Below, in pieces: positions 59,922 through 64,000 of a stretch of DNA of 64,000 nucleotides; within the stretch, counting starts at the first letter, position 1, and each line of letters starts with the position of its first letter. A program made the translations under genes and the position numbers. The DNA is taken from NCBI GenBank assembly GCA_025041195.1, contig JAKCFM010000001.1, positions 2,046,001-2,110,000 on the forward strand. The letters run 5' to 3'. Source of the stretch: Halobacteriales archaeon YIM A00013 (lineage in GTDB: Archaea > Halobacteriota > Halobacteria > Halobacteriales > Haloarculaceae). Below the pieces are notes generated by a model, which saw nothing but the letters and a program-made list of their open reading frames with translations, was not told the origin of the DNA and did not search any database.

Positions 59922-60298
59922 ATAGTAACAAATTCTGAGGCGCTCAAATATGTGTTGATTATGAGACAGTATGTCGAACTGATACCATGGTATATAATTC
60001 ACATCCACCGTGAAATTCCTTCGTAGTCCGTCACTTTTGATGTTCGAACCATCCGAGTGCGATCGTTATATAATCGAGATAACAATTATGATTGAATGTG
60101 AACATACCCAACGATGACTGTTTTGAGATATGAATTGGTGGGGAAATGGTGTTCGAAAACGGTTCTGCGGTCACTGTCGTGGCACCAGTCAGCCCCGTCA
60201 CCAGAACTGGCCAGGATAGTACTAGCAGAACGATTTCGGACACGCGCAACCCCCCACCCAAACAGCCTTGAACGTACCAGTGTGATCACCTACTGAGA
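59922..60298. other. Intergenic region between MFS and citrate synthase-like genes
   Basis: This 377-base region holds divergent promoters and no secure gene. The MFS side has TTATATA on the minus strand overlapping a perfect 12-bp palindrome ATACCATGGTAT (59982-59993). The right part has AT-rich motifs near 60068-60090. A 76-codon minus-strand frame (60031-60261) with a hydrophobic start overlaps nothing but is unsupported. Confidence 0.45.
59982..59993. promoter_or_regulatory. Perfect palindrome in the MFS promoter, possible operator
   Basis: ATACCATGGTAT, a perfect 12-bp palindrome, overlaps the TATA-like TTATATA of the MFS gene on its downstream side, 60-70 bases before the ATG. That is a typical place for a repressor to block polymerase assembly. 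Confidence 0.45.
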
Positions 60299-61753
60299 GT
60301 GACACCATCGATCTTCGATCCCGGACTCACTGCAACGGCAATCGCCGAGACGAGCTGTAGCAATATCGATGCTGAGAACGGGACGGTCCACATTCGGGGC
60401 TATTCGATCGAAGCGATCGCTGCAAAAGCCAGCTACGAGGAGGCCACATGGCTACTCCGCAACGGTCGGCTCCCAACGACCGACGCCGTCGAATCGTTTC
60501 GGGGGGCGCTCGCGAAACGGCGGTCGATTTCCGAGCCGGTAGAGACGGTGCTCAAAACGGCTGCGCAAGCGAATCGATCGGTGATGGAGGCGCTCCAAAT
60601 GGGACTTGCCACAGCGACCGTGAACGGTGACGATACGCTGATCGAAACCAGCCGCGTCGTATCGATCTGTCCGACGATCGTCACCACGTACTGGCGATAT
60701 CGCGAGGGCGTCACCCCAATTCACCCAGACGCTTCGTACTCACACACCGAAAATCTCTGGTATATGCTCACCGGGATGGAACCGGATGCGGCTACCGTCG
60801 CCGGCCTTGAGACGTATCTGACGACAATCATCGAGCACGGCGTCACACCCTCTACGTTCGCCGCTCGAATCGTTGGGTCGACGGGGGCAGATCCGTTCTC
60901 CGCGGCCACCGCGGCGGTCGGTGCGCTGACGGGACCGCGCCACGGTGGCGCACTTGCACGAATTCACACGTTGTTGACGAACAAGGATGCCGTAGAAACT
61001 CCAGCAGCGTTCGTCGAGCAGCGACTCACAGCAAGTGAGTCGATTCCCGGCTTCGGACACAGCGTCTACACCGGGTGCGATCCCCGTGCGGAGATACTGA
61101 AAGCGTGCGCCACAACGATGCTCGAAAACCACGGCGACAGGTCGCTGCTAAACACTGCCACAGCACTCGAAGCGGCCGTTCACGACCAGGTGGCTGGATC
61201 CGACCATCCGTCCGCTCCCAACGTGGATTTCTACGCCGTCGTCTTGCTCGATGCGCTCGCGGTGCCACCACCGCTGTTTCCAGCCATGTTTGCGATCGGA
61301 CGGACGGCTGGCTGGATGGCACAGTATCTCGAACAGCTCGAAAGCGAGACCCTGCTCAGGCCTCGATCCCAATATAAGGGTCCAGAACCCAGATCCTGGG
61401 TGTCTCGTGCCGATCGTGACGCGGCAATTGCAGGCGCTCAGCTCGAACCCGACACGCTCGCCGAGCTTGCAGACGCCTTCAAACTGCTTTCTGAGCCGAG
61501 TCGACTCGAACTGCTCGCAATTCTCGATCAGGCGAACACGCCGCTCTCGTATTCGACATTCCACGAGCGGAGTTCGATTGCGGACAAGGGGCGGTTCAAC
61601 TATCATCTCCGACGGCTTCGGGGAACACTCATCGCAAACGACGGCGCAACGTACACCCTGCGGGCTCCTGGCCAACGGATCGTCGACCGATTGCTAGACG
61701 GCGATATCACATCGTCCGTCGAGCAAGTAAGCGATGCTGACAGGGAACACTGA
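60299..61753 (+). CDS. Citrate synthase-like enzyme fused to a winged-helix domain
   Basis: A 484-residue fusion. Residues 1-370 are citrate synthase-like: catalytic His in GPRHGGA (His215), His in GFGHSVY (His254), Asp in NVDFY (Asp310), and the substrate Arg in DPRAEIL. Residues about 385-470 (LAELADAFKLLSEPSRLELLAILDQ, then DKGRFNYHLRRLRG and YTLRAPGQRIVDRLL) form an ArsR-like winged helix common in haloarchaeal regulators. A condensing enzyme joined to a DNA-binding domain is unusual and may sense its substrate. The start GTG 60299 fits alignment with the next gene. Confidence 0.85.
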   Translation: MTPSIFDPGLTATAIAETSCSNIDAENGTVHIRGYSIEAIAAKASYEEATWLLRNGRLPTTDAVESFRGALAKRRSISEPVETVLKTAAQANRSVMEALQMGLATATVNGDDTLIETSRVVSICPTIVTTYWRYREGVTPIHPDASYSHTENLWYMLTGMEPDAATVAGLETYLTTIIEHGVTPSTFAARIVGSTGADPFSAATAAVGALTGPRHGGALARIHTLLTNKDAVETPAAFVEQRLTASESIPGFGHSVYTGCDPRAEILKACATTMLENHGDRSLLNTATALEAAVHDQVAGSDHPSAPNVDFYAVVLLDALAVPPPLFPAMFAIGRTAGWMAQYLEQLESETLLRPRSQYKGPEPRSWVSRADRDAAIAGAQLEPDTLAELADAFKLLSEPSRLELLAILDQANTPLSYSTFHERSSIADKGRFNYHLRRLRGTLIANDGATYTLRAPGQRIVDRLLDGDITSSVEQVSDADREH

Positions 61754-61849
61754 TTCTCCGCACACGGTGTGTGGATCGCGGTGCGTACCACCGTAAGGTT
61801 CCTTCTGACCTGATTTCACGATGGAGGGACGACCCATGCCATAAATCTG

Positions 61850-61869
61850 GAGAATCAGCGTTCTCCAAA
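61850..61869. promoter_or_regulatory. 7-bp hairpin/inverted repeat between the two citrate synthase-like genes
   Basis: TGGAGAA (61850-61856) and TTCTCCA (61863-61869) flank a 6-base loop, 40 bases before the second gene's ATG. It could end the first transcript or be an operator for the winged-helix domain of the upstream fusion. Confidence 0.4.
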
Positions 61870-61908
61870 TTATTATTTCTCGTTGCTCCGTCCGCCAAAT
61901 AGATATCG

Positions 61909-63036
61909 ATGGTTGACAACTCACTGCATCGTGGGGTCGAAGACATTGCGGTCACAGAGACGGAATTGAGCGATATCGATGGTGAGAGCGGCTCGCTCAT
62001 CATCAGGGGTGTCCCAATCGAGGTGCTGGCGAACAATGCGACCTTCGAGGAGAGCTGTTATCTGCTGTTCAACGATCGCCTGCCGACTGAACCCCAGCTT
62101 GCAAGGTTTCAGCAGCGGCTTTCCGAGCATCGACAGCTTCCGGACCGGGTAGCGACGGTGCTGTCGCAGGCAGCCGCCGAGGCGGTCCATCCGATGGACG
62201 CCGTCCGAATGGGCGTGGCCGCGCTCGATTTTGATGACAAACCACCAGCTGAACAGGCCGTTCGACTGGTGGCGGTGGTACCGACGATCGTCGCGGCGTA
62301 CTGGCGATATCGAGCGGGAGAAGCTCCTGTCGAGCCGCGGGCGGAGCTTCGCCACGCCGAGAACTATCTATACATGCGTACCGGAACGGAACCCGAACCG
62401 GCGGTCGTCGACGCGCTTGAGGCGTATCTGATCGCAGTGATCGACCACGGGCTCAACGCCTCAACCTTTGTCGCCAGGTCGATCGTCTCGACGGAATCGG
62501 ATCTGGTGTCGGCGGTAACGGGAGCCGTTGGCGCGCTCAAAGGACCGCGTCACGGTGGTGCGCCTGGTCCGGTCCTTGAAACCCTACGGACGGTGGCAAC
62601 AACCGGGTCGCCCACAGCGACTGTCGAGTCAGTCCTCGAATCTGGTGATCGGCTGATGGGCTTTGGTCACCGGGTGTATCGAACCCGCGATCCGCGTGCG
62701 GCCGTGCTCGCCAGCGTGGCAGAACGGCTGGATGCACACACCGACGGCTCAACGCTGTTCGAAACCGCCAGCTCGTTCGAGGAAGTCGCCCGTGAGAAAC
62801 TGGCCGCACACCATCCGGATCGACGACTGGAAACGAACGTGGAGTTCTACACGGCGGTCGTGCTAGACGGGATCGACATTCCGCCGGCGCTGTTTACTCC
62901 CACGTTCGCTGTCTCCCGCGTTGTCGGCTGGACGACACACTGTCTGGAGGAACTCGAAGATCCAAAGCTCGTCCGTCCCACTGCACGCTACACTGGAAAA
63001 CGAGATCGAGGGTGGACACCACGATCGGATCGATAG
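61909..63036 (+). CDS. Citrate synthase-like enzyme (no fused domain)
   Basis: A 375-residue paralog of the upstream enzyme with no C-terminal extension. Motifs: KGPRHGGAPG (His215), MGFGHRVYRTRDPRA (His254 and Arg), and TNVEFYTAVVLD where the usual catalytic Asp is Glu (Glu312). I recall Glu here in some CitA-like members of the family, so this could be a subfamily trait. The product is not predictable: citrate, 2-methylcitrate or another condensation. It lies 155 bases after the fusion gene on the same strand; the tandem arose by duplication. Confidence 0.88.
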   Translation: MVDNSLHRGVEDIAVTETELSDIDGESGSLIIRGVPIEVLANNATFEESCYLLFNDRLPTEPQLARFQQRLSEHRQLPDRVATVLSQAAAEAVHPMDAVRMGVAALDFDDKPPAEQAVRLVAVVPTIVAAYWRYRAGEAPVEPRAELRHAENYLYMRTGTEPEPAVVDALEAYLIAVIDHGLNASTFVARSIVSTESDLVSAVTGAVGALKGPRHGGAPGPVLETLRTVATTGSPTATVESVLESGDRLMGFGHRVYRTRDPRAAVLASVAERLDAHTDGSTLFETASSFEEVAREKLAAHHPDRRLETNVEFYTAVVLDGIDIPPALFTPTFAVSRVVGWTTHCLEELEDPKLVRPTARYTGKRDRGWTPRSDR

Positions 63037-63228: not shown

Positions 63229-63804
63229 TCAACTGGTAACACGGAATCGAAGATGGGTTGCCGAGGCTGATTCGGTCACGTCGATGAGATCCAATTCGAT
63301 CTGCTCACCATCCAGATTCTCGAACAACGGCGTTCCGCCACCCAACAGCACCGGCGCGAGATGAATCACAATCGCATCGACCAGTCCAGCAGCGAGAAAT
63401 TGCTGGCAGATGCTCGCGCCGCCCATCACACTGACAGTCTCCGCACCCGCGGCTGCCGTTGCCTGATCGAGCGCGCTTTCGATGCCATCGGTTACGAACG
63501 TGTAGACGCCATCAGCAGGGGGATCCGATGGTGGGTCGTGCGTGACGACGAACACCGGACGGCGGGCAGAACCCGTCGGGCCATCCGCCCCCCACCACGG
63601 GAGCGAACTGTCGTACGTCGTGCGGCCAGCGATGACCGCTCCCAGGTTGGCTGTCGCCTCCGCGAGGAGTTGGCTGCCAACGGCATCGTCTATCCAGTCG
63701 TGTAGTTGGGCGCCACCTTCCCCGAGAGGTTGCTCTGGAGTCTGGGTATCCGCGGTGATGTATCCGTCCAGCGAGATGCTGATGTCGATGACCACTGTAC
63801 TCAT
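63229..63804 (-). CDS. Dihydrofolate reductase/RibD-like reductase
   Basis: A 191-residue RibD C-terminal/DHFR-family protein: STVVIDISISLDGYITAD, NLGAVIAGRTTYDSSLPWW, VSVMGGASICQQFLAAGLVDAIVIHLAPVLLGGGTPLF and IELDLIDVTES. It likely binds NADPH and reduces an unknown substrate. The ATG overlaps by 4 bases the stop of another member upstream (63801-64000), so they are a tandem pair. Confidence 0.88.
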   Translation of the reverse strand: MSTVVIDISISLDGYITADTQTPEQPLGEGGAQLHDWIDDAVGSQLLAEATANLGAVIAGRTTYDSSLPWWGADGPTGSARRPVFVVTHDPPSDPPADGVYTFVTDGIESALDQATAAAGAETVSVMGGASICQQFLAAGLVDAIVIHLAPVLLGGGTPLFENLDGEQIELDLIDVTESASATHLRFRVTS

Positions 63805-64000
63805 GTGGATGGCTCCTCGGTTGCCGTTGGCTGGTATGTGAGAATCACGGCATCTGCACTGGTTCTCTCCACATCGATCAGCTCCAACTGCGTCGGCTCA
63901 ATCGCATCGGTGAACAGCTGCGTCCCGCTCCCGTGAATAATTGGATGCAGCCAGATCCGATACTCATCCACGAGCTGGTTCGCTATGAGCGTCTCCAACA
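63801..64000 (-). CDS. Second RibD/DHFR-like reductase, C-terminal part (runs off the window)
   Basis: Only the last 66 or so codons are in the window, in the order ...NQLVDEYRIWLHPIIHGSGTQLFTDAIEPTQLELIDVERTSADAVILTYQPT, which is the C-terminal segment of the same family as the next gene. The stop overlaps the downstream ATG by 4 bases (ATGA). The N-terminal part lies beyond 64000. Confidence 0.85.
   Translation of the reverse strand, partial: LETLIANQLVDEYRIWLHPIIHGSGTQLFTDAIEPTQLELIDVERTSADAVILTYQPTATEEPST

Follow-up and report, generated by a model that had tools for sequence, protein, structure and literature searches.

A regulator named for an enzyme family is already known from haloarchaea, namely GfcR (gene pyrE1), which resembles the citrate synthase (CS) fusion described below in that respect and has a fold unrelated to the CS fold. 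According to passages of the published account, GfcR activates genes for sugar degradation (PMC11519228). The closest enzymes are the dimeric archaeal CSs, S. tokodaii ST0587-CS and Metallosphaera sedula MsCS. Sections of the structural papers on archaeal CS (PMC6386500, PMC5021468) give H180, H215, H254, R263, R335 and R354′ as the substrate contacts of ST0587-CS, describe a contact between MsCS Asn182 and oxaloacetate, and report a C-terminal arginine that reaches across the dimer into the active site. The fusion is like these enzymes in fold, in domain length and at all substrate-contacting positions, but has an additional DNA-binding domain, has lost the arginine that follows the catalytic histidine, and falls well short of the NCBIfam equivalog cut-offs. 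In the open-licence literature we found no paper on such a fusion, none naming its winged-helix family, DUF7347, and none joining AzlC, haloarchaea and a transcriptional regulator.

The fusion gene lies in a 64,000-nucleotide stretch of the genome of Halobacteriales archaeon YIM A00013 (the window, meaning the whole stretch analyzed) and is followed by a stand-alone CS gene, hereafter the partner. The features of the locus are as follows:

60299 to 61753, plus strand: CS–winged-helix (CS-wHTH) fusion gene, 484 aa, GTG start, a single frame without internal stop
60323 to 61366, plus strand: CS domain PF00285, residues 9 to 356 (Pfam profile)
61367 to 61450, plus strand: linker, residues 357 to 384, low-confidence and probably flexible (AlphaFold pLDDT < 50)
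61469 to 61687, plus strand: DUF7347 winged helix (wHTH), residues 391 to 463, ArsR/SmtB-like fold (Pfam and Foldseek)
61586 to 61618, plus strand: probable recognition helix, residues 430 to 440, placed by the AlphaFold model and presumed to contact DNA
61742 to 61759, no strand assigned: possible second site O2, AGGGAACACTGATTCTCC, 10/12 positions, overlapping the fusion stop codon; the nearest relative has 11/12 at the corresponding position
61849 to 61866, no strand assigned: predicted operator O1, GGAGAATCAGCGTTCTCC, 12/12 positions (palindrome comparison)
61867 to 61878, plus strand: TATA-like element, A/T-rich, directly after O1, read from the sequence; putative promoter element
61909 to 63036, plus strand: partner, a stand-alone citrate/methylcitrate synthase-type gene, 375 aa, the predicted target (profile and neighborhood comparison)

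The original prediction of a CS joined to a C-terminal winged helix within one protein is borne out by the intact frame and by two profiles, the sole Pfam domains above cut-off in the window protein: PF00285 (E = 5.2e-96; 322.2 bits against a gathering score of 27; profile positions 1 to 357 of 357) and DUF7347 (PF24038; E = 1.1e-18; 67.7 bits against a gathering score of 27.6). The FNYHLRRLRG signature that had suggested the winged helix is located at residues 433 to 442, and no MerR/HTH_17 domain exceeds the Pfam cut-off at the N terminus. The fusion falls below all listed NCBIfam CS cut-offs, scoring 273.9 against 550 bits for haloarchaeal CitZ (NF041301) and 274.4 against 421.3 for TIGR01800. 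An AlphaFold model of the fusion, made with 44 related sequences (mean pLDDT 81.8), displays a CS fold, a linker and a winged helix, and in structure matches its CS part resembles Metallosphaera, Sulfolobus and further citrate synthases. The match list for the full model was limited to the CS part; therefore, the wHTH was folded and searched as a separate domain. The wHTH-only model (pLDDT 86.6) consists of helices and a two-strand wing, that is, a winged-helix fold. Its nearest Foldseek matches are ArsR/SmtB and MarR regulators, which are weak matches (best E 0.008, none at E ≤ 0.001) and include SqrR, SmtB and BigR near the top at E of about 0.01; NmtR was matched by the wHTH sequence profile (E 0.0045).

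A scan of 392 genomes of the order found the fusion in 9; a second scan, of named genomes, gave 9 fusions, 4 of which were already in the order set, and a Halomontanus rarus plasmid adds one, for 15 species in all. Besides the source genome, the carriers are Actinarchaeum halophilum YIM 93972, YIM A00010, Natrialba SSL1, Halovivax KZCA124, H. rarus, Halogranum rubrum, Halorientalis marina, Natrinema gari, Salinibaculum litoreum, a Halovenus MAG and four more genomes. The other fusions are 40 to 83% identical to the window protein, the nearest being that of A. halophilum YIM 93972 (83%), and 14/15 fusions share a V-T/S-P start, the Halovenus MAG copy starting at ATG. Because the same fusion recurs in 15 distinct species at these identities, a frameshift or assembly artifact is excluded; the fusion is real and conserved. 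A domain search across archaea had been proposed as the check on the architecture, and the searches made here returned that architecture in 15 haloarchaeal species; in the window gene no frameshift or stop separates the domains. In the 392-genome scan, three of the five congeners of the source organism have no such match; thus, the distribution of the gene is patchy. The 15 species are related and do not represent 15 independent events. Quick trees of 83 and 67 rows, with SH-aLRT support values, unite all 15 fusions in one clade (SH-aLRT 99); it nests within the haloarchaeal "citrate/methylcitrate synthase" family of stand-alone enzymes, and its sister is a stand-alone CS. Two candidate distant fusions (G294 and G205, with matches to residue 468) were rejected, as they are canonical CitZ genes read past the stop into an unrelated gene. 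Also rejected was a link to hyphae or spores through the nearest relative, YIM 93972, the differentiating haloarchaeon described in parts of PMC10067837: many of the carriers fall in other genera, and the gene is absent from those parts of that text.

The CS domain of the fusion retains the residues expected to hold substrate. Fusion residues carry the same numbers as those of ST0587-CS, and H180, H215, H254, R263, R335 and R354 are all kept in the window protein; H215, H254, R263, R335 and R354 are present in 15/15 fusions and H180 in 14/15. The triad H215, H254 and D310, named as conserved in the original prediction, is indeed intact in the window protein. Conservation at other positions was assessed against 68 non-fusion rows, in which 42 columns are ≥97% invariant; in row P_L085, the start was taken too far upstream and brought in a stop symbol, which was dropped before counting. 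(The "Std" group comprises 49 of the 70 non-fusion loci L086–L155, and alignment A2 has 44 rows.) Arg255, the residue after His254, is found in 1/15 fusions versus 67/68 non-fusions, and N308 in 4/15 versus 68/68. A184 and A218 are each kept in 9/15 fusions and N183, which aligns with MsCS Asn182, in 10/15, all three positions being near-invariant in non-fusions; the window protein itself has a serine at 255 and a threonine at 183. When columns were chosen on 53 other CS rows, the partners kept 570 of 585 invariant cells and the fusions 519 of 585. This pattern fits a binding pocket that is retained and catalysis that is relaxed, and we give even chances, judging from the residues, that the fusion is catalytically poor or dead.

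The best surviving alternative is a true trigger enzyme, in which a functional (methyl)citrate synthase would double as a DNA-binding protein, its turnover or substrate occupancy setting the binding. The catalytic triad of the window protein and the kept substrate residues agree with it, as does position 310, which is D in 10/15 fusions and E in 5/15, since E is the residue of all partners and of Bacillus subtilis CitA; the conserved catalytic residues are expected equally of an active enzyme. However, R255 is lost in 14/15 fusions and N308 in 11/15, N183, A184 and A218 show changes, the fusion branches are long in the tree, and the genome already has a canonical CS and the partner. We therefore regard a trigger enzyme as possible but rather doubtful.

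A stand-alone CS gene lies downstream of the fusion on the same strand in 15/15 species, as the immediate neighbor in 14 and with two genes between in G071. Along with the fusion and the partner, the source genome has a third CS gene, of canonical CitZ type, and the CS domains of fusion and partner are about 42 to 52% identical. A common metabolic neighborhood was considered and rejected: besides the partner CS, which is conserved in all, the neighbors vary among clades. MmgE/PrpD is present in 7/9 fusion genomes, so a methylcitrate-cycle link is not obligate. A single clade of all partner CS genes was rejected as well (p-AU 0.00036, quick tree), so that a single duplication with strict co-inheritance lacks proof.

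An 18-bp palindrome in front of the partner gene, GGAGAA-N6-TTCTCC, is newly described here. Searched for in 300 bp upstream of the partner's start codon, it occurs in 15/15 species, at 10 to 12 of 12 positions, and is located at −41 to −61 relative to that start, with the exception of Halorientalis (−110, although the gene there may start closer to the site). In most species an A/T-rich or TTTACAT-like element follows within about 10 bp, and in G071 the palindrome remains beside the partner despite the two intervening genes. O1 is the sole exact match in the source genome (3.73 Mb). A motif-free scan for shared gapped palindromes recovered the same palindrome in 15/15, compared with sharing by three or fewer in 30 shuffles, and 11/12 was never attained by shuffled 300-mers in 2000 trials. 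Among 25 regions upstream of CS genes that lack a fusion (two were fetched twice, leaving 23 distinct loci; three are canonical CitZ), none has the palindrome at ≥11/12, the best being 10/12 in Haloferax mediterranei. Near the fusion stop codon, several species carry a second copy, often weaker, as O2 is in the window. Autoregulation at the fusion's own promoter was rejected, as no palindrome of ≥10/12 is found in the 300 bp upstream of the 15 fusion genes (best 9/12). The proposal that the protein regulates its neighbors, made for regions around both 59982 and 61850, thus divides: the predicted regulation near 61850 is supported by a conserved, genome-unique palindrome that is also found with stand-alone wHTH relatives, whereas the region near 59982 did not hold up, the palindrome there having another sequence from the fusion's site and fronting a divergent MFS gene. 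That palindrome, TACCATGGTA, at 59983 to 59992 of the window and at L035:7734, stands beside a TATA-like element and is kept in the nearest relative.

These data suggest that the fusion probably acts as a one-component regulator of the partner CS gene, its CS-fold dimer sensing oxaloacetate/citrate-like metabolites. Its parts differ in strength: comparative evidence makes it very likely that the fusion is a regulator acting at O1, while the assignment of its CS domain as the metabolite sensor is one toward which we lean. The regulator would have derived from a duplicated citrate synthase. Its CS fold would form the usual dimer, R354 near the C terminus entering the active site of the opposite subunit, and such a dimer would therefore present two ArsR-type winged helices, which could bind both halves of GGAGAA-N6-TTCTCC, a site defined by comparative genomics. 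As the predicted site abuts the TATA-like element of the partner, the fusion protein would thereby control the partner gene; repression is modestly favored over activation, to which we assign a smaller though appreciable share. Oxaloacetate or a citrate-like metabolite, possibly plus acyl-CoA, would occupy the retained pocket, and closure of the two CS domains would shift the winged helices and alter DNA affinity, such that the amount of partner (methyl)citrate synthase would be set by its own substrate or product.

Constant adjacency, the similarity of the two CS domains (about 42 to 52% identity) and an active-site arginine shared across the dimer, as given in sections of PMC6386500 and PMC5021468, would also suit mixed dimers, in which the fusion pairs with the partner CS and the latter co-regulates or titrates it. 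A mixed dimer would, however, bring only one wHTH to a two-fold site, and we consider this arrangement unlikely.

The palindrome is also found apart from the fusion. Exact palindromes number 64 sites in 57 of the 392 genomes, against 14 for the reversed control pattern. The flanks of the 60 sites outside four fusion loci were examined, and 16/60 lie ≤130 bp from a gene matching the fusions' wHTH profile; a 17th such locus, L063, comes from a genome outside the 64-site set. At 15 of those 16 loci the exact site precedes azlC-azlD, and in 16 loci of this kind, compared in one orientation, the palindrome starts −27 to +39 nt relative to the stop-codon end of the wHTH gene. AzlC and AzlD follow the stand-alone wHTH gene in 18/19 loci compared, two of these without an exact site. 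The resulting module, a DUF7347 wHTH gene followed by GGAGAA-N6-TTCTCC (mostly exact) and azlC-azlD, is seen at L059–L066, L189, L193, L195, L204 and L205, and likewise at L212, L219, L220, L230 and L231. Because the palindrome recurs right behind the genes of stand-alone wHTH relatives, the site goes with the DNA-binding domain. These stand-alone DUF7347 proteins share with the fusion the DNA-binding domain and a palindrome placed where the regulator gene ends, ahead of the following gene, but have no CS domain, and their predicted target is AzlCD (branched-chain amino acid transport). The simplest history that we infer from these sequences is that an azlCD-type wHTH was joined to a duplicated CS and retained its own site. 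Alignment A3 took 10 of 18 stand-alone wHTHs, mostly those that read DKG (others read DNG), and its invariance is therefore no general count. A Haloprofundus salinisoli plasmid (L246:9977-11110) carries a partner-type CS with an exact site and no fusion beside it; since this CS falls inside the partner clade, it is likely a relic, the pair minus its regulator. The remaining 43/64 exact sites are without explanation by fusion, wHTH or partner CS, and some of them may have arisen by chance.

Nine places in the source genome match the wHTH, the fusion included, and another protein could therefore bind the palindrome; together with the palindromes before azlCD where there is no fusion, this would accommodate a different, stand-alone DUF7347 regulator at the site, with the fusion's wHTH doing something else. 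Yet palindrome and fusion co-occur in 15/15, and none of the 12 azlC loci in 9 fusion genomes is adjoined by a wHTH gene of this type, near sites at azlC in those genomes being confined to YIM A00010 (11/12, the best, and 10/12), which makes such a regulator quite improbable. An ordinary enzyme whose C-terminal tail is inert, in keeping with the annotation of the H. rarus copy merely as citrate/2-methylcitrate synthase, is more improbable still, given the predicted-operator evidence and a DKGRFNYHLR stretch identical in 14/15 fusions (one reads DKGQLNYHLR) while whole-protein identity descends to 40%.

The premise that citrate synthases are not DNA-binding proteins is overstated, since HTH-CS proteins are encoded on proteobacterial plasmids. 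Plasmid pAt of Agrobacterium fabrum encodes a 425-aa protein, WP_236762366.1, with an N-terminal MerR-type HTH (MerR_1, 25.3 bits against a Pfam cut-off of 21.6) and a CS domain; its gene and that of a stand-alone CS are divergently oriented. Its relatives on other proteobacterial plasmids are often divergent from catabolic genes, and at the N terminus they can be aligned with the Agrobacterium HTH; CS-family genes in a regulator's place were observed on proteobacterial plasmids at L067, L071, L072, L074, L075 and L076. Six bacterial HTH-CS proteins, one Pfam-checked and the rest alignable at the N terminus, were compared: R263, R335 and R354 are present in 6/6, the histidines in 5/6 and the arginine after the histidine in 1/6, both catalytic histidines being gone from the Cupriavidus protein. 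This family therefore resembles the fusion in combining an HTH with the CS fold, in keeping the substrate arginines and in losing the arginine after the histidine, and the Agrobacterium gene, like the fusion gene, adjoins a stand-alone CS; it differs in its N-terminal MerR-type HTH, its CS domain with deletions and its independent fusion. The existence of these proteins lends independent support to the idea of a CS-fold sensor. The CS fold may have been adopted on two or more occasions to read metabolites for a transcription factor: in haloarchaea it carries an ArsR-type wHTH at the C terminus and in proteobacteria a MerR-type HTH at the N terminus, both keeping the oxaloacetate/citrate pocket and dropping the same arginine. 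Such proteins would make up a class of direct TCA-entry sensors, and we judge the odds of this reading as a whole to be even.

The fusion would be counted among the enzyme-derived one-component regulators, and, if true, oxaloacetate/citrate sensing by a CS-fold regulator would be a new coupling of entry into the TCA (or methylcitrate) cycle to transcription. A span of 2.8 kb contains the fusion protein, the predicted operator and the predicted target, and the stand-alone wHTH with the same site and the partner CS without a fusion provide natural controls. A predicted regulator and operator for haloarchaeal azlCD were obtained as well. Downstream of the partner, a minus-strand frame with a RibD-C domain occupies 63229 to 63998, adjoined at the window's end by a similar-looking short second frame.
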